Shown here one piece after another: positions 1 to 12,151 of a stretch of DNA of 64,000 bases (positions within the stretch are counted from its first letter, which is position 1; the number at the start of each line of letters is the position of its first letter). The stretch comes from Paraburkholderia flagellata (GTDB lineage: Bacteria > Pseudomonadota > Gammaproteobacteria > Burkholderiales > Burkholderiaceae), in assembly GCF_021390645.1 (NCBI RefSeq), contig NZ_JAJEJT010000004.1:124001-188000 (forward strand), written 5' to 3'. The position numbers and the translations under genes were made by a program. Below the pieces are notes generated by a model. It was given only the letters and a program-made list of their open reading frames with translations, searched no databases and was not told the DNA's origin.

Positions 1-434
1 TCACGGCCGCCGGTACCGCCACGGCTGATGCGACGCAGCGGCACGAACGCGAACTCGCCGCGGAGCGGGTGCGCTACGAGGGCCTGTCGAAGCAGCTGCT
101 GCGCGAGACCGCCCACCAGCGCGAGACGTTCCAGACCGAACGGCAGCGCCTCGAGGCGGAACTCGCGCGCGCCGCGGAGCGGCTACAGGCCCTCGAATCC
201 CTGCGCGAGCGCCTGCTCGCGGACCTGTCGCAGGAACGCGAGGCCCGGCAGCACGCCGCCGCGGAAGCCGCGGCGCTCGCCACGCTGGTGGACCAGCAGC
301 GCCAGACCCTGGCGCGCATCGGTGCCGGTTCAGTCAACGGACGGGGCAAGGCGGCAGGTACGCGACCAGCCGCCCATCGCACGGCCCGAACGACAAAGGC
401 GGCCGCCGGCCGGTCCACGGGGAAAGCGCGATGA
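1..434 (+). CDS. C-terminal part of a coiled-coil (KfrA/TnpT-like) accessory protein, 5' end outside window
   Basis: An open frame enters from the left edge (codons in phase from base 3) and stops at 432-434. About 143 residues are visible. The first 100 are a Glu/Arg/Ala/Leu heptad-rich coiled coil; the last 35 are a basic Ala/Lys/Arg/Thr tail that could contact DNA. No catalytic motif is visible. The stop overlaps the next start as ATGA, so it is translationally coupled to the recombinase downstream. KfrA-like and TnpT-like coiled-coil proteins are known partners of tyrosine recombinases in transposons and islands; that role here is inferred. The N-terminal DNA-binding domain, if present, lies outside the window. 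Confidence 0.6.
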   Translation, partial: TAAGTATADATQRHERELAAERVRYEGLSKQLLRETAHQRETFQTERQRLEAELARAAERLQALESLRERLLADLSQEREARQHAAAEAAALATLVDQQRQTLARIGAGSVNGRGKAAGTRPAAHRTARTTKAAAGRSTGKAR

Positions 435-1918
435 CTGCCGTGACGCCATCGCGCTGGCTCGATACCGGCTGCCGGCCACCGCAGCGGCTGCCGGACACGA
501 CCGACGCGGCGCTCGCCTACGTCGCGCACGCGCTCGGCCACCCGGTCTACCTGCGCTGGACACTCACGGCGCTCAAGCGCGGCTGCCCGTCGCTGGCCGA
601 TGCGAAGCGCGAGCACCCGGCCGTGTTCGCGCTGCTGCTCGAGCGTGACGCCGCCATCGAATACTGGGATCACGGGCGCCTGCGCGTGGTGCCGGAGGCC
701 TCGGCGCCGTCTGCCGCCACCGTGCTTGAACGCACCCTGCGGCAGCACCGTCGGCGCTTCCGTTGCATGACGGCAGGCCCTGTGCCGGACACCGCCGTCA
801 CGGTCCAGCAGGCCGCCACGGATGACGCGGCCCGGCTGCCCGCTGGTGTCGATCCGGTGTGGATGGCTCGCGCCGGGCGCTTCGCGAATGCGGCGGCGCT
901 CACCAACACCCTCGGCGTGGCCGATGACGCGCAGGCGGTGCGCCTCTTCTTGCGCGAGCGCGCCTCGCACTCGCCGCACACCCTGCGCGCCTACGTGACG
1001 GAACTGCGGCGGCTTGCGGCCTGGTGCCGGCGCGAGCACCTGGGGCCGTTCTCGGATCTCACCCGCCAGGACCTGATGGCGTACCGTGACGCCATCCAGG
1101 CGCCACAGCATCACGGGGACGGCAAGACCCGGCGCGCAGCGCCGGCCACCACCTCCCGCGCGCTCGCCGTGGTCTCGAGCCTCTTTGCCTGGTGGCACCG
1201 CACGGGCTATCTCATGGTCAATCCGGCGGAAGGACTGGCCGCCGGGCGGCGCGCCCGCATGACCTGGACGCCGGTGCGGTTCCTGCCCGCGGCGGCCCTG
1301 GGGCACTGCGATGCGGTCGCCGCCGGTGACGCGCCGGAAGACGTTCCGGCAACGGTCTGGGCCAGGCGCCGGGCCATCTGGGCGCTGTACCGCTTTGCCG
1401 GCATCCGGCTCGCTGAACTGGTGTGGCACGAGGCACTCGCGCTGCCGCGCATCGAGGTGGATGAGACCCGGCAGTGGACCCTGCACGTCACCGGCAAGGG
1501 GAACAAGCTGCGCGCGATCCCGCTGCCCTCAGGCTGCCTGCCGGTGCTGCGTGCCTACCGTCGGGCGCGGGGCCTGCCCGCGGATCCGCCGTCCGGCGAA
1601 CACCTGCCGCTCATCCACAGCGAACGCGGCCGCGCGCTGGGTGCGAGCGGCTTGTACGACGAGGTGCGGGCGGTGTTTGCGCTGGCGGCGGCACGCCTGC
1701 CGCCGGAAGAGCGCGCGATGCGCGCGGCGCTCGAAATGGCCTCCACGCACTGGCTGCGCCACGGCTACGCGCGCACGCTTGTGGTCGACCATCGCGTGCC
1801 GCTGCCGGTGGCGCAGGCGCTGCTCGGCCACGCCTCGGTGCAGACGACGGCGGCCTACGCGAGGACCGACACCACGCAGCTGCGTGCGTTTGTGGAGGAG
1901 AGTTTTGCTGCCCGCTGA
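431..1918 (+). CDS. Tyrosine recombinase/integrase, 495 aa
   Basis: Site-specific recombinase expected to cut and rejoin DNA through a phosphotyrosine. The core-binding SAM-like domain is around residues 160-265 (SPHTLRAYVTELRRL and following) and the catalytic domain around 285-490. The visible active site is R326 (AGIRLAEL), a Lys in GKGNKLRAIPL (356-359), H440 and R443 (HWLRHGYA), H467 (LLGHAS) and Y476 (AAYAR), so the catalytic set is complete. The roughly 150-residue N-terminal extension is longer than in a typical phage integrase. It starts in an ATGA overlap with the coiled-coil gene. GC is as high as the host core, unlike the recombinase trio downstream. Whether it mobilises the island or resolves a transposon cannot be told from this window. 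Confidence 0.9.
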   Translation: MTAVTPSRWLDTGCRPPQRLPDTTDAALAYVAHALGHPVYLRWTLTALKRGCPSLADAKREHPAVFALLLERDAAIEYWDHGRLRVVPEASAPSAATVLERTLRQHRRRFRCMTAGPVPDTAVTVQQAATDDAARLPAGVDPVWMARAGRFANAAALTNTLGVADDAQAVRLFLRERASHSPHTLRAYVTELRRLAAWCRREHLGPFSDLTRQDLMAYRDAIQAPQHHGDGKTRRAAPATTSRALAVVSSLFAWWHRTGYLMVNPAEGLAAGRRARMTWTPVRFLPAAALGHCDAVAAGDAPEDVPATVWARRRAIWALYRFAGIRLAELVWHEALALPRIEVDETRQWTLHVTGKGNKLRAIPLPSGCLPVLRAYRRARGLPADPPSGEHLPLIHSERGRALGASGLYDEVRAVFALAAARLPPEERAMRAALEMASTHWLRHGYARTLVVDHRVPLPVAQALLGHASVQTTAAYARTDTTQLRAFVEESFAAR

Positions 1919-2014
1919 AAGACGCGGCACCGATTGTGCCGTCCGGAAAAGAGCGGGCTGTCTATCTGGCGCCATGGATGGCTGATTGACTTCTTTATAA
2001 ACAGGGAGCCGGCA

Positions 2015-3049
2015 TTACTCGAGTAAACGCCTGAGCGGCGAATCGCGCATCGCGATAGAGGTGCCGTCGACGACAAGGTCCAGTTCACTTTGCCTCAAAC
2101 AAAATGCTGGCTGCTGAACGGGCGAGAATCTGAACCGGGCTGGTACCCAACCATATGCAATCAGGCCGATAACTACCTCACCGATATTTGCTGCCAGTCC
2201 CATCCCGATCGGTCCGAACGTATGTCTGTCACCGCCGCGGAGCCAGATTCTGGACTCCCATGCCTGCAAGAATGTGGCAAGCTGATTCCACAAAGCTTTG
2301 AGAAACAGCCAGTCAGCAGTCTCAAGGCACGGCAACGCTTCAGGAAACATCCGGCCCAGATTCTCGTAAATGGCCAACCAGGCCTCGTTCGATATTTCGC
2401 GTGATGCGACCCTTATTTTAAGATACGCTCGCGCGTACTCGTACGGATTGCCAATAACCTGCGCGCGCCGGAGCCGGAACCAGAGTATCTCGGCGGTAGA
2501 GATTGAAGGCATCCCGCACACCAACGTCGGACTCATGAGTTCCTTCCATATTTCACCTGACAAGACCGGCGACCAAAGGTCGCGCGAAGCGTCCTGCAGA
2601 TTTGCAATTTTGGGTACAAGCGAATCTAGCCTCTGCGCGGTCCAGTCGTCTTCCGAAAGCAAATGCCATAGCGGCGCCTCATCGTCATTCAGCATATCCA
2701 GAACAGCGCTTTGTGCGACCTGTCCCAGTTCGCGCCGGCATGTCGCTATGGCGCCGTTCCGGCGCCTGCTGGACGCGTCGAATTCAGGGAGTTGACCAAG
2801 CCGCAACCAGCGATTCCGACCTGCGCGGGAAGCGGCGCCGCTGAGCGCGAGTCTGTCTGCTGCGCGGGACAGACTCACTTCGCCTGTCGCGATCAAGGCC
2901 GCCTTCTGAAGGAGAGTCAGCCGCAAGGTCGCCACGTCTGACGCCCGCCCTCTTCCACTCGGGACCTCGGAGCTGTCGCACCGAAACTGATAGTGGTAGC
3001 CGTGACGCGGACTGTTCCGGCCCACTGATGAAAATGCGACGAAATCCAT
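2015..3049 (-). CDS. Uncharacterised protein, 344 aa
   Basis: I do not recognise this protein. The start is set at the ATG at 3049 because a very strong purine-rich ribosome site (GGAGGGGGGGCG) sits directly before it; an upstream start at 3073 would add 8 residues. It is soluble-looking, rich in Trp, Leu and Arg, with no signal peptide, convincing membrane segment or cofactor motif. The middle (about 85-200) looks helical, and the second half has an aromatic stretch (WLFLKALWNQLATFLQAW). It reads toward the integrase end and is divergent from the small HTH-like gene at 3210. It lies inside mobile DNA between two recombinase units, so it is accessory cargo; a regulatory or defence role would be a guess. 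Confidence 0.6.
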   Translation of the reverse strand: MDFVAFSSVGRNSPRHGYHYQFRCDSSEVPSGRGRASDVATLRLTLLQKAALIATGEVSLSRAADRLALSGAASRAGRNRWLRLGQLPEFDASSRRRNGAIATCRRELGQVAQSAVLDMLNDDEAPLWHLLSEDDWTAQRLDSLVPKIANLQDASRDLWSPVLSGEIWKELMSPTLVCGMPSISTAEILWFRLRRAQVIGNPYEYARAYLKIRVASREISNEAWLAIYENLGRMFPEALPCLETADWLFLKALWNQLATFLQAWESRIWLRGGDRHTFGPIGMGLAANIGEVVIGLIAYGWVPARFRFSPVQQPAFCLRQSELDLVVDGTSIAMRDSPLRRLLE

Positions 3050-3209
3050 CGCCCCCCCTCCGTCCGCACACACTTTTTACCCTGCAATTCTATGTTCGCG
3101 CATAAGACCCGACTGTCCTTTAATCCACTACAGAGGCCAACTCGAATTGACCGCCTGCTAGCGACAAGACGCGACATTCCGCGACACAGAGCACAGGGAC
3201 ACGACTGCT

Positions 3210-3464
3210 ATGAAAAACCCGGACGTTGACCCGGTCGTCGACTCGCTCGCCGAGCGACACGGGCCGCTCCTCGGTGGCACCGCCCTCTGGCATGTGCTGG
3301 GTTACGCCAGCGCCCGGGCATTCAGCAAAGCCGTCGAACGTAACACCGTTCCGGTCACCACCTTTCACATACCCCATCGACGGGGGCGCTTTGCAATGAC
3401 ACATGATGTCATCGCCTGGTTGCGAGCGACGTCGGCAATAACGTGCCGCAAGCAAAACGCGTAA
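3210..3464 (+). CDS. Small putative DNA-binding protein, PrtN/HTH-like, 84 aa
   Basis: A short basic protein with the pattern of small HTH proteins found beside integrases: a helical first half (LAERHGPLLGGTALWHVLGY), then SARAFSKAVERNTVPV, a short beta-like segment (TTFHIPHRRGRFAMT) and a final helix (HDVIAWLRAT). This resembles pyocin-activator PrtN-type or excisionase-like winged-helix folds, but assignment by eye is tentative. The ribosome site before the ATG is weak. It diverges from the 344-aa gene across about 160 bp and precedes the recombinase trio, so it could regulate either side. Recombination directionality factors often have this size and charge; that is inference. Confidence 0.5.
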   Translation: MKNPDVDPVVDSLAERHGPLLGGTALWHVLGYASARAFSKAVERNTVPVTTFHIPHRRGRFAMTHDVIAWLRATSAITCRKQNA

Positions 3465-4040
3465 CGAATTCCGACCGACATGGAGGCATACCGATGAAGT
3501 AACCCGACCCTTAAGAAGGGCCCAGAAACGAAAACGCCCGGGTTCCGACACCCAGGCGCGTCCGCACTGCTTCTTGCGTCAAGTTCTCGCTCGACAGAAT
3601 CAGTCTGGTTCGCTTTCCGCCGCTTGTCAACCGGCGGAAGCGGTGATCCTTTTGCCGCTGCTTCATTGTGTGCTGGACGTTACCCGAAACTTCAGCACCC
3701 AGAAGGCAAGTCGTCGTTTCTCCCTTCGCCGGATAGACCGTGGCTTCCGACATCAGTGCGCGCTCGTCGCGCCGGCATGTCCGGATGCCGATCAGACACG
3801 CCATAAGCCTGGCGGGGAGATTGCAATGAGTCCCATCACCTCCGACAGAGGAATGCGAAAGAGTCTGGATCGATCCCCTGCTGGACCCTCCACACGTGTC
3901 TGTCCATTGAAATTGTGTCTCACAAAACAACGAAAGCAGACAGCGGGCGCGACCTCGCAACCACCTTGTAGTCGCGTTCGGTCTGCAACGCATTTCCAGA
4001 TGCACTTGTCGGCATCACTTTATTCGAAATGAGGTCACGT
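3465..4040 (+). other. Non-coding stretch ahead of the recombinase trio
   Basis: No convincing gene is seen. Open frames on both strands have atypical residue composition for this genome and no ribosome sites. It contains one terminator-like hairpin facing the minus strand (3535-3558). The trio promoter and, by position, one end of the element should lie here, but no terminal repeat was found by eye. Confidence 0.4.
3535..3558 (-). terminator. Terminator-like hairpin on the minus strand
   Basis: Nine-base arms CGCCCGGGT and ACCCAGGCG (one G-T type mismatch) enclose a 6-base loop. Read on the minus strand it is followed by TTTTCGTTT, the form of an intrinsic terminator. No recognised minus-strand gene lies just upstream of it, so it may end an unannotated RNA or a decayed gene, or insulate the trio. 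Confidence 0.45.
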
Positions 4041-5348
4041 ATGGCACGCATAGAGTCTGTGCGCTTTGCGCCACGCCGAGCTGAGGTTGATGCGGAGAAC
4101 AACTTAGTCAATTGGCGGCTTACACGATCAGGGAAAGTCATCGAGAAACTTCCCAACATTTTCTGGAAGAGCGGCCTGCCGTGGCGTGAGGCAAATATCT
4201 GGCTGCTCCAAGGGGCAATCGATCACGACATCGACATCGACATCAAGACCGTGTTCTCACGCGCAGCAGGAGTTCTAGGGTACGCAACTTGGCTGGAGGA
4301 AACTGACACAGACTGGTGGGACTTTCCTCTCAAGGAGTCAAAACGCTGTCTGAAGCGCTACCGTGGATACTTGATCGGCTTACGCAAGACTGGTTCATTG
4401 GCGCCATCAACAGTCTCACAACGAATGAACGTAGCCATACGACTGACTCGCTGGTTACGCGACCAACTACTCCTTTCATCCGATTGGCCATTGTGGACGG
4501 AGCGGACGATTGGAATCCACATTCCAGATCCCACAGGTGTTGTGCGCATTCTCAGTGTTGCCACAACTGATTTGAGCATTTCAAATCGTCGCCCGCCCGG
4601 CACACAACTCGAGGACGGCCTACGGCCTGTCTCACTTGAGGATCGCGACAGAGCACTGATTCTTGAGAGCGAGTGCGCTTCAGAAGAGCTATTCTTGATG
4701 CTCTCGATTGGATTCTTTTGTGGAATGCGCATCGGAACAATTGCATCGCTGAAGGTCCAAACATTGGAACGTGCGGTTCCAGACCCCGACGCTCCCGGCT
4801 TCTACCGGATTGCTGTCGGACCGCGTGCCTCCCCATCCGTCGCAACAAAGTTCGGCGTAGACGGACAAATACCAGTATCAAGCGCGATGCTCAACGAACT
4901 GCAAGCGTACGCATCATGCCCAGAGCGTCTCAAGCGGGAGATGAGGGCTGCCAAACATAATAAGGATCTTCTTTTTCTAACCCGGTATGGCAACGCGTAC
5001 TGCCAGAATGGTTCCCAAAGTAGCAACGCGATAAATGTCGAAATGCACAATCTCCGTCAGCTCGCGGCCAGACGGAACTTCGACGGTCTTCGAAAGTTCC
5101 ACTTCCATCAAAGTCGCTGCACTTTTGCGACCGAGCTTGCAAGACTGGCTATTCGGGTTGGTGGATCGATGTTTGCGGTAGCAATTGTAAAGGAATTCCT
5201 CCTGCATCGGCACGAGTCTACATCGTGGACCTACATACGGTTTATCGAAAAGACTAAAACCAAGGAGAAAGTGGCAAACGCCTTCGCGGAGCAATTCCTA
5301 GGCCTGGTTGAGGGGGTACGGAGAACAAAAAGTGACCCAACTGCCTGA
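4041..5348 (+). CDS. Tyrosine recombinase A of the trio, 435 aa
   Basis: First gene of the block. The ATG at 4041 is preferred over 4029 because GAGG lies 6 bases before it. The catalytic domain occupies the second half: R230 in FFCGMRIGTI, HxxR as H356-Q-S-R359, and H389 with Y398 nine residues apart (LLHRHESTSWTYIRF), the usual spacing of the last His and the nucleophile. A Lys near 270 (VATKFG) may be the beta-hairpin Lys. The N-terminal half has an arm-like or core-binding region (WWDFPLKESKRCLKRYRGYL and following). All key residues are present, so it is probably active. It overlaps recombinase B by 17 bases. Confidence 0.85.
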   Translation: MARIESVRFAPRRAEVDAENNLVNWRLTRSGKVIEKLPNIFWKSGLPWREANIWLLQGAIDHDIDIDIKTVFSRAAGVLGYATWLEETDTDWWDFPLKESKRCLKRYRGYLIGLRKTGSLAPSTVSQRMNVAIRLTRWLRDQLLLSSDWPLWTERTIGIHIPDPTGVVRILSVATTDLSISNRRPPGTQLEDGLRPVSLEDRDRALILESECASEELFLMLSIGFFCGMRIGTIASLKVQTLERAVPDPDAPGFYRIAVGPRASPSVATKFGVDGQIPVSSAMLNELQAYASCPERLKREMRAAKHNKDLLFLTRYGNAYCQNGSQSSNAINVEMHNLRQLAARRNFDGLRKFHFHQSRCTFATELARLAIRVGGSMFAVAIVKEFLLHRHESTSWTYIRFIEKTKTKEKVANAFAEQFLGLVEGVRRTKSDPTA

Positions 5349-7020
5349 TCTAACGCTACCCTCCATGCAATTATCCGAAAAGATCGCTGGCTGGGATCTG
5401 GCCTACATCGTCTACGCAAAGGGCACAGAGCTCAAACCATCGGAATTTTGGCGTTGCGACAAAACAGGCCTAGGGAGAATCAAGAGAAACCGGATAGCGC
5501 TTGCTGTTGCCATTCATGAGGTCTTTGACGCGCAACTTGCTGGTGGAGGCAGCCCAATTTCAGCGAAATCTACGCTGCATGGACTCTGGAGGTTCATTAA
5601 ATGGGCAAACCTGGAAGGAAGGGATCTTGCGCTGGAAACCATACGAGATGACTATCTGGCGTGGAGCGATTATTTAATCCTCAAAATAAGACGTGGTGCG
5701 CTCAAACAGAGTTCTGTGATCATACTAGCGTCGACCGTTGGACGGGTACTGGCGAAGGCGCTCGGGCGACCTCGAAGTTTGCTTTACGACTCCCGCGTGC
5801 CAAAAGACTCACCAGCCACTGCAAAGTCAAGCAAGAAATACCTGCAGAACCTGGCAAAAACGATGGCCTTTGGGAGTATGTTGTGCGACCTCGTAACTGC
5901 AATAACCGTCGACGCCGTCCGCGGCCCCCTGCCGCTAACGATACCACTTCGGAACGGGCGCGTGCTCGTCGAATGGGCCGGGTTGTGGCCCGAAGACAGG
6001 TTGCGGTCGGCTCCCGAATCGCAATCCCGACGGAAGCACATTCAGAACAGACAACCGCTCACTGACGACGGCGATTGGCTGTCACGGTCGAGCATCAGCA
6101 ATCTTCGAATCGAAGCAGAGATGCTCATCTTCGTGGCCTGTACAGGTATGAATCTCTCCCAAATGATCGACCTAAAAGCTGGTGATTTCACATTCACTAG
6201 CTGCTTCAACGGATACGAAGTTAGAAGGTTATACAAAGACCGTCGGCATGGAGAAGTGGAGTTCGTAATTTACTCGACCTATCGGGTTTTTTTCGAGCGA
6301 TACCTCTCCTGGAGAAAGCGGCTGTACCCGGACGACGATCGGCTTTTCCCCAGAACAAGCACCGAGGGGAAACGTCTGAATCCCTTTTCAATGCAATTTT
6401 TCTTAGTAATGCGCCGCTGCAAACGTGCTGGTGTTGCGTTCGTCTCTCCGCAAATCCTAAGAAATACCCAGGTTAATTGGTTGCTCCGACTTTCCAAGGA
6501 TGCTGAAGTGACCGCCGAAATGTCCCAGCATACCCAAGAGACCCTGCTTCGCATCTACGAGCAACCGAATCACCAACTTGCGGCTGTAGAAATCTCGCAG
6601 TACCACGCAACGTCTGACCCTACCCTGTCTGCGGTGGGTCCAGGCGGATGCGATGGCGGCAACGCGGCGCCGATACGTTTCCTACCAGCCGAAGCGCCCA
6701 AACCTGACTGTGCGAGTCCAGCTGGTTGTCTATTTTGCCAACAACATCTTGATGTTGACACCTTGGACTACGTCTGGTCCCTGGAGACTTACAGGTATCT
6801 GAAATCACTAGAGTTAGCGAATTTTCGACCCATCGGCAACCGCCGAGATCCTCATCCAGCAAGACTCACAATAGAGCGGGCGAAGGCGATCCTTGATGAA
6901 TTCAGGGGTATCGATACGGTCCACGCGATGTGGGTCGACGAGGCCGTACTGCGGATTCGAGAGGAGCGGTACCACCCGGCATGGGAGGGTTTCATCAGAA
7001 TCGCGGAGATACTTAAATGA
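5332..7020 (+). CDS. Tyrosine-recombinase-like protein B of the trio, 562 aa, degenerate active site
   Basis: The GTG at 5332 is preferred because GGAG precedes it by about 8 bases; an upstream ATG at 5308 is possible. The recombinase fold is visible but altered: the first catalytic Arg position in TGMNLSQM is Asn274, and the HxxR box reads Q374-I-L-R377 so its His is replaced. H400 and Y409 keep the nine-residue spacing (SQHTQETLLRIYE). A Cys cluster follows (C460, C466, C469: PDCASPAGCLFC), possibly part of a metal site. Loss of two catalytic positions suggests a structural or regulatory partner for A and C. It sits between them with overlaps on both sides, implying equal production. Confidence 0.8.
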   Translation: MTQLPDLTLPSMQLSEKIAGWDLAYIVYAKGTELKPSEFWRCDKTGLGRIKRNRIALAVAIHEVFDAQLAGGGSPISAKSTLHGLWRFIKWANLEGRDLALETIRDDYLAWSDYLILKIRRGALKQSSVIILASTVGRVLAKALGRPRSLLYDSRVPKDSPATAKSSKKYLQNLAKTMAFGSMLCDLVTAITVDAVRGPLPLTIPLRNGRVLVEWAGLWPEDRLRSAPESQSRRKHIQNRQPLTDDGDWLSRSSISNLRIEAEMLIFVACTGMNLSQMIDLKAGDFTFTSCFNGYEVRRLYKDRRHGEVEFVIYSTYRVFFERYLSWRKRLYPDDDRLFPRTSTEGKRLNPFSMQFFLVMRRCKRAGVAFVSPQILRNTQVNWLLRLSKDAEVTAEMSQHTQETLLRIYEQPNHQLAAVEISQYHATSDPTLSAVGPGGCDGGNAAPIRFLPAEAPKPDCASPAGCLFCQQHLDVDTLDYVWSLETYRYLKSLELANFRPIGNRRDPHPARLTIERAKAILDEFRGIDTVHAMWVDEAVLRIREERYHPAWEGFIRIAEILK

Positions 7021-9065
7021 CACAAGATCTAGCCACAGCCCGCCTGTCAATCGATTCACAAATCGTCAACTCATTGGCGAGTAACTATCGCCTAACCTCG
7101 TGGCCCCCGAAAGATGATTTTCCTATCGTGATTGACCGCAAAGGCAATGTAATCAGTAGATTCGGCGACCCGTACTGGGACCTGACTGTGTGGAACGATG
7201 GCGTTAGTCTCCGGCTCTATTTTGGAGCACATTTAAATAAAGCCAACAAAAATTACATATCACCTGAAAATGCGAGACTTTTGAAATTAATCTCCGTCTG
7301 GATTCTCTATTTTGATCGTGAATTTAGAAAAGCAGTCACATTATATTCATTTATGAAAAGACTCAAGCCAATCTTTGTGATTTGCACAAAGAATAATGTT
7401 CTTGCGTCAGATTTGACAAGATTTCCCGCTTTGCTTGAAACGGCACTCGAGAAAATAAACGGAACCTTTGCTTCGACTGCTCTATGTGTGTTTCACCAAT
7501 TATTCGAACACCGAAACGAAATAGGGTTTATTATTTTTGATCGATGCGCGTTGAAGACAATTAGCGATTCCGCCAACTTTGGTGAGAAATTTGGTCAGAC
7601 TGCTTATATTCCGCCACGGATCTGGACATATCAATTGAATCGCTTGCGAGAATGTCTTGATGATTTTATTAGACATGCCGACGACGTTTCGAAATGCTTC
7701 AATTACTGTCTTGATGCCTATGTGCGCAGTTACGGTTCGTTAAAGAACGCAACCGCCAGTGGGCGTGACCTCGATCTCGCGCCGTTCAACGTAAATTGCC
7801 CTGAACATCTTGGCGGATATCGTGGACCATTTCGCGATGTTGCAAAGAAATTCGGCATTGCTGAGTTGCTGGAGCGTTGGACTCTTCGCGGGAGCGGCGA
7901 AGCCGGTCAACTCCCGGTATCGACGTTGACGAGCTATTTTCAGACGATAATGTATGTGAGCCTGATATATATACTGAATTTTTCTCTAATGCGAGTTTCA
8001 GAAGCCACCCGTCTTCGCTCAAACTGCCTCGAGATCGATGATGATCCAACGTTCGGCCCGATCTATCTTCTCCATGGTGTCACCACCAAGTCCTATGATG
8101 ATGATGATGCACGCTGGGTGGTATCCGTCTCGGCTCGCGTGGCAGTCGAAGCCGCAACCATCATCGCGCGGTTGCGCGCAAAGTCGGCTAATTTGAAACT
8201 GCCGCATGGGCGAACCACGAAAAAGGACAGCAGTGTCCTGTTATTCACTCCTGCATGTGAACCGTGGGCCCAAGGCGCACCAATGGCAGAGACTGCATTT
8301 CGATGGTCGCCTAAATCGTATGGAGAAATGATTACCCTGACACTAGCCAACGTTTTTGATCCGTGCGAGCTTCGGGTCACGAAAGAGGATCTAGAGATCG
8401 CCAGGTTAGTTACACCGAGTCTCGACGCTGAGAAGTTCAAGATTGGCGCGATCTGGCCACTCGCGTACCATCAATTGCGGCGAACGGGAATGGTGAATAT
8501 GCAGGCCTCCGGGATCGTGTCGGAAAGCTCAATGCAGTATCAGGCCAAGCACGCAAGGCGCGCGATGTCTCTCTATTATGGGCAGGGATATTCACAAGTA
8601 GCGGTCAATCGATCGGCACGTCGCGAATATATTCGAACCATGTACGAAATGCTTGGGAAGGAGATCGAGCGGCTTTTCCAGAGTCGGTTTGTTAGCCCCT
8701 ATGGTCGCCAACGTAAATCGGAAATCTTGCATTTGGTCAGCGATCGTGACTCAAAAAAAATCCTCGCTGCAGGAAAAGCTGGAAAAGTCACATGCCGACA
8801 AACGCTGCTCGGTATGTGCGCGCGGCGTGACGTATGTAAATTCGGCGGTATCGATAATATTGTACATTGCGCTGGGGACGATAAGCATCAGCCCTGCTAT
8901 GACGCCCTTTTTGATCGGGCAAAGGAAGCCGAAATTTTCGAGCTTAGAGACGTTCTTGACGAGCAATTGCTAAAGGCAGCGATCGGCTCTCCATTGTACG
9001 ATTCACTATTGGCACAGAGATGTGCGGCGGAGAAGGTACTTGGTTACTTTGCTAAAAGGAAGTGA
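7017..9065 (+). CDS. Tyrosine recombinase C of the trio, 682 aa
   Basis: The start overlaps the stop of B as ATGA, with GGAG 14 bases upstream. This is a very long member of the family. The N-terminal 300 residues are unlike common integrases and rich in Asn, Phe, Ile and Lys. The catalytic region has R326 (FSLMRVSEATRL), K358 (TTKSY), H485-Q-L-R488 and H512 with Y521 nine apart (KHARRAMSLYY). A C-terminal Cys/His-rich segment (C593, C601, C607, C618, C627) looks like a zinc-binding module. Codons are AT-rich compared with every other gene here, a clear sign of foreign origin. Catalytically complete. Confidence 0.85.
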   Translation: MTQDLATARLSIDSQIVNSLASNYRLTSWPPKDDFPIVIDRKGNVISRFGDPYWDLTVWNDGVSLRLYFGAHLNKANKNYISPENARLLKLISVWILYFDREFRKAVTLYSFMKRLKPIFVICTKNNVLASDLTRFPALLETALEKINGTFASTALCVFHQLFEHRNEIGFIIFDRCALKTISDSANFGEKFGQTAYIPPRIWTYQLNRLRECLDDFIRHADDVSKCFNYCLDAYVRSYGSLKNATASGRDLDLAPFNVNCPEHLGGYRGPFRDVAKKFGIAELLERWTLRGSGEAGQLPVSTLTSYFQTIMYVSLIYILNFSLMRVSEATRLRSNCLEIDDDPTFGPIYLLHGVTTKSYDDDDARWVVSVSARVAVEAATIIARLRAKSANLKLPHGRTTKKDSSVLLFTPACEPWAQGAPMAETAFRWSPKSYGEMITLTLANVFDPCELRVTKEDLEIARLVTPSLDAEKFKIGAIWPLAYHQLRRTGMVNMQASGIVSESSMQYQAKHARRAMSLYYGQGYSQVAVNRSARREYIRTMYEMLGKEIERLFQSRFVSPYGRQRKSEILHLVSDRDSKKILAAGKAGKVTCRQTLLGMCARRDVCKFGGIDNIVHCAGDDKHQPCYDALFDRAKEAEIFELRDVLDEQLLKAAIGSPLYDSLLAQRCAAEKVLGYFAKRK

Positions 9066-9066
9066 C

Positions 9067-9510
9067 GTGCTTCCAGAATCGGCGGAGAGCGCCTTTCGAT
9101 CTGCGTTCGAACGGTTGAAGGTAGGGAAACCCGTTCGATTATCGGTCGGCACAGCGATAACCCAAGCCAGTGTGGCACAAGAAGCGGGTTGCGATCCTTC
9201 AGCGCTACGCAAATCACGCTATCCCCTCTTGATCAGCGAGATACAACGTTGGCAACGAGACAACCCGCCGAAGCCGGCACCGTCGCAGCGCCAGCTGACT
9301 CGCGCCAAACGTGAACAGCGGCGCGACGACCGAGCGAGGCTATCAGAAGTTGTAAAACAGCGCGACAGCCTGGCATCGCTGTTGATGGAAGCCGATACAA
9401 AAATTGTGGAGCTCGTAAAGGAAATTGCGGAGCTCAAAGAGCGAACTCCGAAAGAGTCATCTAATGTAGCCAACTTCCCGGGAAATCGCTCCCGGAGAAA
9501 CGGACTGTGA
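9067..9510 (+). CDS. Small HTH plus coiled-coil accessory protein, TnpC/DUF6262-like, 147 aa
   Basis: Starts with GTG at 9067, one base after the stop of recombinase C, with AAGGA before it. Residues about 15-60 look like a helix-turn-helix (TAITQASVAQEAGCDPSALRK), then Pro/Arg-rich basic residues, then a heptad coiled coil (about 85-125) ending in a polar tail. The architecture matches the small TnpC/DUF6262 proteins that accompany Tn554-type recombinases and influence orientation and efficiency of transposition. The family is inferred from shape and position; no direct sequence match could be tested. Confidence 0.65.
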   Translation: MLPESAESAFRSAFERLKVGKPVRLSVGTAITQASVAQEAGCDPSALRKSRYPLLISEIQRWQRDNPPKPAPSQRQLTRAKREQRRDDRARLSEVVKQRDSLASLLMEADTKIVELVKEIAELKERTPKESSNVANFPGNRSRRNGL

Positions 9511-10571
9511 CGTACTCCGTATTTCAAGGGGCGCAAACGTGTCATCCGTCGCAGTGCGCGAACCTTGGACTGCGCTGTGGATACGCCAAAGGACGGATTA
9601 TATGCGTCGGTGTGGGCGCGACAGTCGAATAACTGTGTGCGGGAACGACGCGCTCCGCTCATCTCCGAATCTCGCAAGCGCGCGCTTAGCAGCCACCCAA
9701 CGGCGATCAACATAACTCTTCAACAATACCTGCCCCAGCTTCACGAAGCCCATAACAGATGCCATCCGCCAGCATGCCTGCTGAGCCCCGACCCGGTTCT
9801 TCTCGAGCGTCCCGCGGCTAACGTAATTCAACGTCGGATGCAGTCGCGCGACCTCCAGGAACGTAGAGGCTTTGGTCAGCGCTCTAAACCAACAATCGCC
9901 GCTTCAAATCATCGCTTAACGGATGCCGTACGCCTCAAGTGACTCCTGGGAGATCCTGCCGCAATATTGGCTGCCGGTTCTTTACACAGAATCACACCGG
10001 CCTCGGGGCAACGCCGAAGCCGTGCTACGCCCAGCGCATCTGGTTATCACCTCGGCATACGGAGGTCGCTGCATCGACTAGCCCTTCACCGGACAATTCC
10101 GACGACCAGATACAGCGAGCCTTCAGCCATCGCTCCAGGCGAAAAATCTCCCCAGACCCAATTCGGCGCATGCCGCCTCAAGACGGGCTCCGACACGTTA
10201 CAGTGTTCGCCCGGCAGCCCTTAGGAAGGTCGACTTCGCCGTTGTAATCCACCTGCGCGTTGCCGTGCGCTGATCCCCTGCTGCGCTATCAGCCTTCTTT
10301 CCTTATGCACGCCATCGCCGCATATTTGATCTCGACTCGTGCTCCCCGTGTGTACAACTGAGCTGCCCACACCACAAGGGCGTGGACAGCCGCCAATCGG
10401 CGGTCCCTCAGTTGCACACACTCGGAACTGACGCGCGCCTGCGGCGCTTGCCCAAATTAAGGAAAAGGGAAGAAAAACTCGACATGACTTGGCGCACCAA
10501 ATGTGCAGGTCCGTCGGTGCGATGTCCATCGGCTGATACTAATAGTGATGACTGTCAATGCACTCTGCTAA
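9511..10571 (+). other. Non-coding or decayed kilobase at the island's right side
   Basis: No gene can be supported. A minus-strand frame between about 9880 and 9598 reads as a plausible basic protein segment (about 95 residues, no start or ribosome site) and may be a remnant I cannot name. Other frames are broken and compositionally random. The stretch contains the large inverted repeat at 10348-10421. The junction with host DNA is probably just before 10572. Confidence 0.45.
10348..10421. repeat. 74-bp structured inverted repeat with two internal hairpins
   Basis: Outer arms GTGTGTACAACTGAG (10348-10362) and CTCAGTTGCACACAC (10407-10421) pair over 15 bases with one mismatch. Inside are a second imperfect hairpin (CCACACC with GGCGTGG around 10368-10386) and a perfect one (CCGCC-AATC-GGCGG, 10390-10403). 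Together they would fold as a three-way junction. It is too regular to be chance; possibilities are an element end, a structured RNA or a recombination site. Confidence 0.6.
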
Positions 10572-10730
10572 CGTGTAGGCTTCATTCCGAGCTATACGTT
10601 GCAAAGCGGACGCTTCAAGGACACGAAGATCACCTTCATCGCCATGTGGCATCACGCCTCGAAGTACTACTCCGACCCGAGTAACCAGGAATACCGGCTC
10701 GTCATCAACATGCCGTTGAAGCTGTTCTGA
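10572..10730 (+). pseudogene. 3' fragment of an outer-membrane beta-barrel (porin-type) gene
   Basis: A 52-codon frame without a start, preceded by an in-frame TAA at 10569, ends at 10728-10730. It reads as two or three amphipathic beta strands with alternating aromatic residues (KDTKITFIAMWHHASKYY, then QEYRLVINMPLKLF) and a terminal Phe, the signature of a Gram-negative outer-membrane barrel C-terminus. The exact porin family is not certain. The abrupt beginning beside the island suggests the mobile DNA replaced or interrupted the rest of the gene. A GC-rich hairpin near 10748-10770 separates it from the convergent gene. Confidence 0.6.
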
Positions 10731-10784
10731 AGCGCCGCAGTCGTGACGCGGCGGCGCGGGCCGCCGCCGCGTGCGCCGTGCGCG

Positions 10785-11192
10785 TCAAGCCTCGCGGGCA
10801 AACACCTCGCGCGCGGCGAAGAGACCGTTGAGCGCCGCGGGAAAGCCCGCGTACACTGCCATCTGCATGATCGTCTCGACGATCTCCTCACGCGTGAGCC
10901 CCACGTTGAGGCCCGCGGCAATATGGACCTTGAGTTGCGGCTGCGCGTGGCCAATGGCCGTGAGCGCCGCGATGGTGGCAATTTCGCGCGAGCGAAGGTC
11001 GAGACCGGGCCGCGCGTAGATGTCGCCAAATGGAAATTCCAGCAGATACTGCGCGAAATCCGGTGCGATATCGGCGAGCGAGTCGATCACGTGCTCGCCG
11101 CCGCTGCCATCAATCGCCGAGAGCATGCGCTTGCCTCTTGCGAGGCGGCTTTCCTGCTGGGCGGCGCTGACCTGATTCATCGTTTCGTACAT
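10785..11192 (-). CDS. Carboxymuconolactone decarboxylase/AhpD-like family protein, 135 aa
   Basis: All-helical CMD-family protein: PGLDLRSREIATIAALTAIG followed by KVHIAAGLNVGLTREEIVETI and YAGFPAALN are the classic family blocks. The AhpD CxxC pair is absent, so it is closer to the decarboxylase-like or uncharacterised branch than to the peroxidase partner. The ATG at 11192 is chosen because AAAGGAA lies just upstream; it lies inside the end of the MerR gene (83-base overlap), so the two are coupled. Members next to MerR regulators are often induced by aldehydes or electrophiles. The substrate is unknown. Confidence 0.85.
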   Translation of the reverse strand: MYETMNQVSAAQQESRLARGKRMLSAIDGSGGEHVIDSLADIAPDFAQYLLEFPFGDIYARPGLDLRSREIATIAALTAIGHAQPQLKVHIAAGLNVGLTREEIVETIMQMAVYAGFPAALNGLFAAREVFAREA

Positions 11193-11553
11193 TCTCGTTC
11201 CTTTGCATGGCGTGGGAATAACCTTCGATCTTTTTGTCGAGGACGAGAAGACACGCCTTGAGTTCAGCCACCTGCGCACGCACCGCTTCGCGATGCGCCG
11301 CCAGCAATTCGCCGCGCTCGCACTCGGTTGACTTACCCGCCGCGCGCAGTTGCGCGTAGCGCAACATGCCCTGGATCGGCATGCCCGTGGTCTTCAGACG
11401 GCCGAGGAACTCGATCCATTCGAACACCGAGCGGTCGTAAGCGCGCTGGCCGGTTTCGTCGCGCACCGCATAGGGAATCAGCCCGATGCGCTCGTAGTAG
11501 CGGATCGTGTGGGCCGAAAGGCCCGTGAGCGCGGCCAGTTCACCAATCTTCAT
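11110..11553 (-). CDS. MerR-family transcriptional regulator, 147 aa
   Basis: N-terminal winged HTH of the MerR type (MKIGELAALTGLSAHTIRYYERIGLIP, residues 1-27), a second wing (GQRAYDRS), then the dimerisation helix (about 75-118, CERGELLAAHREAVRAQVAEL). There is one Cys at about residue 78 in STECERGE and a further one in the helix, but not the metal-binding pattern of MerR/CueR. It resembles the AdhR/NmlR aldehyde-responsive group. The start at ATG 11553 matches the first HTH residue. It is the first gene of a two-gene operon with the CMD protein and has its own 19-bp-spacer promoter. Confidence 0.9.
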   Translation of the reverse strand: MKIGELAALTGLSAHTIRYYERIGLIPYAVRDETGQRAYDRSVFEWIEFLGRLKTTGMPIQGMLRYAQLRAAGKSTECERGELLAAHREAVRAQVAELKACLLVLDKKIEGYSHAMQRNENVRNDESGQRRPAGKPPRKRQAHALGD

Positions 11554-11578
11554 GCACTTCTCCTCATCGACGTTCTGA

Positions 11579-11609
11579 ATAGTGGGACTTCGAGTGCACT
11601 CCAGGTCAA
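11579..11609 (-). promoter_or_regulatory. MerR-type promoter/operator with 19-bp spacer
   Basis: On the minus strand, TTGACC (11609-11604) and CACTAT (11584-11579) are separated by 19 bases carrying the dyad-like ACTTCGAGTGCACTCCAGGT. An over-long spacer containing a dyad is the hallmark of MerR-family activation by DNA untwisting. It reads into the merR-CMD operon and ends about 25 bases before the MerR start. Confidence 0.75.
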
Positions 11610-11731
11610 GCACTTTTTTGGTTGAACTCGAAAATTGAAATGACAATGAAAACTTCCTACTCGTCCGTAGTTCCCACGCCGACCATCATGCGCTTCCAAT
11701 CGCTACACCAACAGTAGGCTTAGCCGTGACG

Positions 11732-11881
11732 TTGATGACCGGTTTGATTCGAGGTGGGCTGCTGCATCTGGGCCATTTTGACGTGACGACTTTCGCGCTC
11801 GACGATGCGAACGAGGCAGTCGCTCATGCAGCGGCGAATGGCGGCCCATTCCGGATGACGGTGATCAGCCCAGCGCGTTGA
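11732..11881 (+). pseudogene. C-terminal remnant of a zinc-type alcohol dehydrogenase
   Basis: A frame with no start gives about 49 residues that match the last strand-helix of medium-chain dehydrogenases (GLIRGGLLHLGHFDVTTFAL, then DDANEAVAHAAANGGPFRMT), stopping at 11879-11881. The rest of a normal roughly 340-residue enzyme is missing. MerR regulators of the AdhR kind usually sit beside an alcohol dehydrogenase, so this may be the lost divergent target. The 270 bases after it, up to the xylanase gene, hold only a decayed frame ending near 12100. Confidence 0.65.
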
Positions 11882-12151
11882 CGAGTGTGGTTCTTCGCAG
11901 ACGATCACACAATGGGCGACCGGTATCGCGTCGAATCCGTTCTTCCCGTAACTGCTGCAGCGGATCGATGAAGGCATCGGCAAGATGCCGCCGCCGGTCG
12001 TCAAGTCGCCACCGCGCACGCATGAAACCGCGGACGGTCGGCCCGACGATTTCGAGGCCGATCTGAACCCGCGCGAGCAGGTCGGCTCCGACGAGCCTTG
12101 ATGGCCCGCACAATACCGGAGGTCATCTGCTTCCCGGCTTGAACGTTGACG

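Follow-up and report, generated by a model that had tools for sequence, protein, structure and literature searches.

We analyzed a 64,000-nucleotide stretch of Paraburkholderia flagellata DNA (the window; positions 124,001 to 188,000 of contig NZ_JAJEJT010000004.1, called C4 below), in which four plus-strand genes lie at positions 4041 to 9510. These are very probably intA, tfp, intB, and srap, the core of a mobile element of the SE class, and the element itself a 126.6-kb insertion that splits a porin gene. The SE class and its copy-out-like movement were defined in PMC10214605 and PMC9345347. Gene A (intA, 4041-5348) encodes 435 amino acids (aa), or 439 aa from a start 12 bases further upstream. 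Gene B (tfp, 5332-7020; 562 aa) and gene D (srap, 9067-9510; 147 aa) have GTG starts, and gene C (intB, 7017-9065) encodes 682 aa. Genes A and B overlap by 17 bases and B and C by 4, and there is a 1-base gap between C and D. The protein lengths, overlaps, and gap match exactly a preliminary description made from the sequence alone, which had called the block a less-described multi-recombinase mobile unit. It is a multi-recombinase unit, and its genes belong together. That description had said that its reading would fail if the genes all fell inside a well-described element type, which is largely what we found, the type being SE (PMC9345347, PMC10214605).

The order and strand of the four genes are those of SEs, intA-tfp-intB-srap, and the proteins are homologous to named SE proteins. 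For SE-PaeBT2436, which spreads tmexCD-toprJ, the published accessions are WP_034039553.1 (Tfp) and WP_023443007.1 (Srap; PMC10214605), and these are the accessions at locus L003. In tblastn comparisons with the L003 module, identity was 46% for IntA, 39.7% for Tfp, 43% for IntB, and 50% for Srap. The IntB identity of 43%, to the IntB beside tmexCD-toprJ, extends over 99%, and the Srap identity extends over 130 aa. At least 512 proteins were related to IntB at E<=0.001 (8000 candidates scored). Such relatives were on at least 113 plasmid records, 78 of them from Klebsiella or Pseudomonas. All six of the plasmid records that we opened had the four genes in the same order by tblastn (in a P. aeruginosa plasmid, the intA match begins only at residue 39), and two of the six modules adjoin tmexCD-toprJ. 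We regard the identity of the module as an SE core as near certain.

The four genes also stay together in other genomes. In a set of 398 Burkholderiaceae genomes, 20 had an IntB relative at E<=1e-20, and 16 of the 20 had all four genes in the same order (window genome included in both counts). Among the other four, two loci close to the edge of a contig (L039 and L044) had only intB and srap, L045 had only a truncated intB and srap, and L046 was a weak match without gene D. Pairwise identity matrices of the four genes were correlated across 24 modules (rho 0.75-0.93), whereas the largest value in a permutation control was 0.45 (500 permutations per pair). The 24 modules were those with four full-length genes out of 34 loci. 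We left out L003 and L004, which are near copies of L008, and eight loci without some full-length gene. Chance adjacency, which the preliminary description had named as the other outcome that would count against it, does not fit this shared order and correlated divergence. Furthermore, the L033 and L034 cores are 94.9% identical over 6346 bp but sit in different genera with different flanks. Therefore, such units do move. As a separate observation, L046 (G246:C137) has IntA, Tfp, and IntB relatives at 25-28% identity in the same order and no Srap match; it is possibly a GInt or a distant SE.

The preliminary description had counted three tyrosine recombinases and had noted catalytic residues in genes A and C. 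Both of those proteins have a full RHRY set that is invariant across aligned relatives. In IntA, the residues are R230, K270, H356xxR359, H389, and Y398 (28 aligned sequences, window included; H389 at 95% or more), and in IntB they are R326, K358, H485xxR488, H512, and Y521 (without exception in two alignments, of 20 and of 28 sequences, each with the window protein). However, gene B does not encode a full recombinase. In Tfp, Asn274 replaces the first catalytic Arg and Arg377 stands at the His of HxxR, whereas K302, H400, and Y409 are conserved (alignments of 29 sequences, excluding L004 and short rows, and of 64 sequences). Tfp has been described as having no RHRY motif (PMC10214605); unlike that description, the window protein keeps the Tyr at the catalytic position (Y409). 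For Srap, 49 sequences were aligned.

An AlphaFold model of Tfp (pLDDT 82.9, pTM 0.59) had XerA as a match at E 9.9e-4 in the PDB, and its best matches there also include XerH, Cre, the Tn1549 integrase, and an integron integrase. Only one match was below 0.001, and the TM-scores were low (0.2-0.45). The model supports a tyrosine-recombinase fold for Tfp, with the domain arrangement lying outside this support. Together with its incomplete catalytic set, this is the SE pattern. Pfam matched IntA to PF00589 (E 5e-6; at 26.8 bits, just short of the curated cut-off of 27.1) and Tfp to an integrase domain (E 0.0017), gave only chance-level matches for Srap (best E 0.046), and had no match for IntB. 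PHROGs returned integrase families for IntA (E 1.4e-11), a very weak one for Tfp (0.16), chance-level matches for Srap, and no family for IntB. NCBIfam had no family for any of the four at E<=1, and a PDB sequence search with an IntB profile gave 0 matches.

The ends of the insertion came from the comparison of empty and occupied sites that the preliminary description had called for. The insertion occupies C4:7953-134577 (126,625 bp), and its right end is window position 10577. The 3' part of the interrupted gene, which we read from its sequence as a porin gene, follows at 10578-10730 on the plus strand. The 5' part lies outside the window, some 116 kb to the left of its first base; it ends at C4:7952 and is followed by a 6-bp footprint (TTCACT, C4:7953-7958), and motif C' starts at C4:7959. 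A query covering 10560-11650 was matched by 135 of 144 genomes of the genus, window genome included. Among the matches listed, those that come from other genomes and extend into the porin part all begin at position 19 of the query, which is window position 10578. In all four congeners that we fetched (G300, G120, G479, and G477), the porin flanks are contiguous.

On the minus strand, the empty site attB (G300) reads GGAAT-GAAGCC-AAACTCGTG, attL reads GGAAT-GAAGCC-TACACGTTAG (short form GGAAT-GAAGCC-TACACG), and attR reads CTAATCGGTA-AGTGAA-AAACTCGTG (short form CGGTA-AGTGAA-AAACTCGTG). These junctions obey the SE rule to the base, with the 6 bp of attB (GAAGCC) at motif C on the right and a foreign 6 bp (AGTGAA) at motif C' on the left. 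This base-level fit of the empty site makes the assignment of the ends a strong one. Imperfect inverted terminal motifs, TACACGTTAG..ATTGAC and TACCGATTAG..ATGGAC, stand at the empty-site borders. Motif C, an attL-type end, occupies 10506-10577 on the minus strand (outermost base 10577), with arms ATTGAC and ATGGAC 30 bp apart, as placed by the empty-site comparison and by arm and pattern searches. When sought at a threshold of 15 matches in 19, inverted repeats between the right flank and the region upstream of intA were only noise; the spacing of the arms and the empty sites resolved the ends.

The pattern TAC..[GA]T[TA]AG..[AT]T[GT]GAC has two matches in the 126.6 kb, both at the ends, and 0 in 61 kb outside; simulation gave a mean of 0.1 and a maximum of 1 (40 runs). 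We composed this pattern after seeing the window ends, so independent support rests on the ends of L028, L031, and L036. L028, which is free of cargo, has this same C' at a distance of about 158 bp from srap on its far side, matching the left end of the window element. (A search for its empty site with the left flank matched 20 of 60 genomes, G123 itself at full length and the others partially.) L031 and L036 have motif C upstream of intA, and the attL of L036 starts as that of the window does. The end motif TAC..[GA]TTAG..ATGGAC, with a double arm at attL, may make it possible to recognize the ends of some family members without comparing genomes. The window element and SE-PaeBT2436 share the four-gene order and a related attL/attR layout at the junctions. 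SE-PaeBT2436 differs in that its first attL arm is degenerate (GCGGAC) and its core adjoins attL. Its group has gammaproteobacterial hosts, lies in umuC in three of four copies read (L005, L007, and L008, but not L003), and carries a resistance pump in L003 and L008; we judged the junctions of L003, L005, and L008 by eye.

Three separate signs identify motif C with the right end and C' with the left: the foreign 6 bp are on the left, the double arm is on the right, and the attL of an SE in P. fungorum, the nearest relative in the tree, can be aligned with the right end over 64 columns (score 41 against a null maximum of 29). Several observations weigh against a single, intact SE. In published SEs, motif C adjoins intA (PMC10214605, PMC9345347), but here it is a minus-strand motif on the other side of the core, past srap by 1067 bp. 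The core is therefore not at the motif-C end with intA adjoining attL, so we name this an SE-type element with a rearranged core rather than a canonical SE. Searches of the region upstream of intA found no motif C (1.5 kb at one mismatch and 2 kb at two), and breakpoints of an inversion were not found. The insertion, at 126.6 kb, is over twice the size of the largest of 37 published SEs (58.5 kb; PMC10214605). With one substitution allowed, the terminus pattern has eight matches in the island and 0 outside; one of the eight falls at the right end, on its second arm, and some may be other old ends. Also, given a multicopy recombinase element, a serine-recombinase-like gene, and ParB-like genes inside it, the island may be composite.

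An unlikely alternative is that the ends at C4:7959 and 134577 belong to an SE that has lost its core and that the core in the window is the remnant of a second SE, in the opposite orientation and with decayed ends. The orientation of the core relative to the ends, the large size of an island with other mobile elements, and the one-substitution matches inside it would all be explained in this way. However, the ends match those of the core's own relatives (the 64 columns of the P. fungorum attL, the attL start of L036, and the attR of L028), and, with up to one substitution allowed, no further pair of ends turned up close to the core.

We consider it probable that the 126 kb are a single mobile SE and, from the sequence, that a local inversion inside the element turned the core. 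The upstream sequence of the window intA did not align with the P. fungorum attL (score 22 against a null of 29). Its reverse complement scored 32 against a null of 31 with the spacer between the P. fungorum attL and intA, outside the motif and too weakly to be of use. We found no convincing inverted repeats able to mediate an inversion of the core. In DNA comparisons of 3000-4040 and 9511-10577 with relatives, a palindrome shared with L045 was the only similarity beyond short chance-level matches. This imperfect 94-bp palindrome (10343-10436), with a three-way-junction fold, lies between motif C and the core, likewise in L045. Its copies (window 10343-10436, G000:C2:608214-608308, and L045:4661-4756) are 82-85% conserved, and the DNA z-score of the fold is -3.4. 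Rfam gave 0 matches on window positions 1-12000, palindrome included.

Of 23 loci, an arm-pair search gave 10 with motif C on the side of intA, and L045, L105, and L106 add three. Motif C was not detected in L004, L033-L035, L037, L038, L040-L042, L046, and L107-L111. Arm pairs also arise by chance, with six others in the 126.8-kb island and one within intA of L106, and the pair in L043, 820 bp away, may be of this kind. In L039, the pair is on the srap side, and the sequence there matches the srap-side end of L033; we read it as C' with a chance second arm. The C' of L033 also begins TACACGTT, so this start alone cannot tell C from C'. In L032 (about 2550) and L045 (4290), motif C lies at the 3' end of a gene. 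The C-terminus encoded there reads as YchF, and one branch of Burkholderiaceae SEs may prefer this gene as its target.

In the SEs of Vibrio, a single strand is exchanged between attL (motif C) and attR (motif C') by IntA and IntB, which Tfp and Srap assist as partners. The product copied out is a double-stranded circle with a nick, no empty site is left, and insertion leaves the 6 bp of the donor beside C' (PMC10214605, PMC9345347). The Paraburkholderia element would have moved by the same copy-out route. Its 126 kb would have entered as one SE, not by later nesting, and a local inversion would then have turned the core relative to the ends. Published knock-outs suggest that attL must adjoin intA (PMC10214605, PMC9345347), so this copy is probably impaired or dependent on another promoter. 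If the inversion is real, it would break the rule that attL abuts intA. It would be a testable exception to the proposed coupling of attL and intA and a natural test of whether the four proteins can act at a distance.

A GInt (a ginABCD island) is a second and very improbable alternative. GInts also have a four-gene operon with three recombinase-type proteins, one small auxiliary fourth protein, and large cargo, and GinC likewise does not have the first Arg (PMC5385486). They are also known in Betaproteobacteria (PMC10214605). However, the non-catalytic protein is third in GInts (PMC5385486) and second in the window, as in SEs, so that the order catalytic-catalytic-noncatalytic-small is not found here (we compared GinC and GinD by description only). 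The window proteins have clear identity to named SE Tfp and Srap, whereas GInt proteins form a separate cluster and most GinC proteins have no BLASTP match to Tfp (PMC10214605).

We give almost no credence to a recombinase-in-trio (RIT) or Tn554-like element or to the bridge between the two that the preliminary description had suggested: three tandem recombinase-type genes and the predicted structural resemblance of Srap to TnpC (PMC10214605) favor it, and a catalytic Tyr in all three proteins (as in RITs) and the 6-bp footprint rule of Tn554 (PMC10214605) are shared features, but archetype RITs have three catalytic recombinases of 315-410 aa (PMC10214605, Table 1), against 435, 562, and 682 aa, a non-catalytic second protein, and a fourth gene here, Tn554 (TnpA-TnpB-TnpC; published hosts Staphylococcus and Enterococcus) has no Tfp gene (PMC10214605), NCBIfam matched none of the four proteins to a family, and the SE match itself disfavors it. 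Deeper in the tree, an ancestor common to SEs and RIT/Tn554 is possible.

The SE class was known already; what is new is a betaproteobacterial member, its odd core architecture, and a wider host range. A survey found SEs only in Gammaproteobacteria and concluded that their movement depends on the host, and it reported an absence of Tfp and Srap homologues from Alpha- and Betaproteobacteria (PMC10214605). The window host, a betaproteobacterium, is outside that range. We found no literature beyond PMC10214605 on SEs in Burkholderia, Paraburkholderia, or Betaproteobacteria (preprints not covered). Counting the window genome each time, Tfp was present in 12 of 144 Paraburkholderia genomes and in 3 of 399 genomes of the wider order. 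A Burkholderia dolosa conjugative plasmid has the four genes in this order by annotation, with Tfp and IntB aligned, and all four were matched in Chromobacterium aquaticum, intB in two pieces. Other Tfp proteins are named as P. fungorum, P. hiiakae, Cupriavidus numazuensis, and a Herbaspirillum, and matches are also named as Geomonas and Anaerolineales records (by record name; contamination possible). An IMG/VR scan with the Tfp alignment gave two loci.

In a tree, the window module grouped with that of P. fungorum (support 1.0), and then with Cupriavidus numazuensis and a Stenotrophomonas plasmid SE (0.948). Betaproteobacterial modules were intermixed with Pseudomonas and Klebsiella SEs that carry tmexCD-toprJ. 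The P. fungorum SE (G417, L105) shares 60-61% IntA identity and the same TACACGTTAG...ATTGACA end with the window element, and its attL border was confirmed by an uninterrupted site. Unlike in the window, this attL is in the canonical place, 179 bp upstream of intA. From its sequence, the target reads as an oxidoreductase gene; a search of 154 kb did not reveal where the element ends on its far side. The Paraburkholderia Tfp counts, the B. dolosa plasmid module, and the mixed tree weaken the published conclusion of host dependence and widen where carriers of the tmexCD-toprJ type should be sought. More tentatively, SEs may extend beyond Gammaproteobacteria with a Burkholderiaceae branch that moves more than 126 kb of aromatic-catabolism-type cargo and whose core can be inverted relative to attL; as a whole, we hold this proposal to be possible but doubtful.

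The island, which as an SE would be expected to have no conjugation genes, has catabolic-type genes by a home-made gene call, and from N-terminal sequences some products read as, for example, hydroxyquinol dioxygenase and maleylacetate reductase. A family scan of nine selected proteins also gave a serine-recombinase-like gene and ParB-like genes. A 6551-bp recombinase element lies inside it at G000:C4:18558-25108, with copies at C6:104434-110984 and C5:291774-298325 (99.94-99.97% identical among the three). Its tandem open reading frames encode 407, 514, 774, and 165 aa, and the first two match tyrosine recombinase families below cut-offs. The six bases past the shared right end are CATTTT, CATTTT, and ACTTTT. 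It has the look of a multi-recombinase transposon that was active in recent times. Another block of four recombinase-type genes (L007:1338-6360; 385, 536, 614, and 137 aa) is found upstream of the SE on a plasmid of P. putida.

Window positions 1-1918 (G000:C4:123475-125918) hold a GC-rich pair in which a gene for a 319-aa protein overlaps one for a 495-aa XerC-like tyrosine recombinase. The 319-aa protein has a coiled-coil look and no match in NCBIfam, and the pair looks like a separate integration module. An electron-transfer-flavoprotein-like pair, so read from its sequence, is at G000:C4:57241-58949. It has 90-95% protein identity to a pair in P. fungorum (G417 C3) that lies about 1.2 kb beyond srap in the SE there, and it may be shared cargo or a common core gene.

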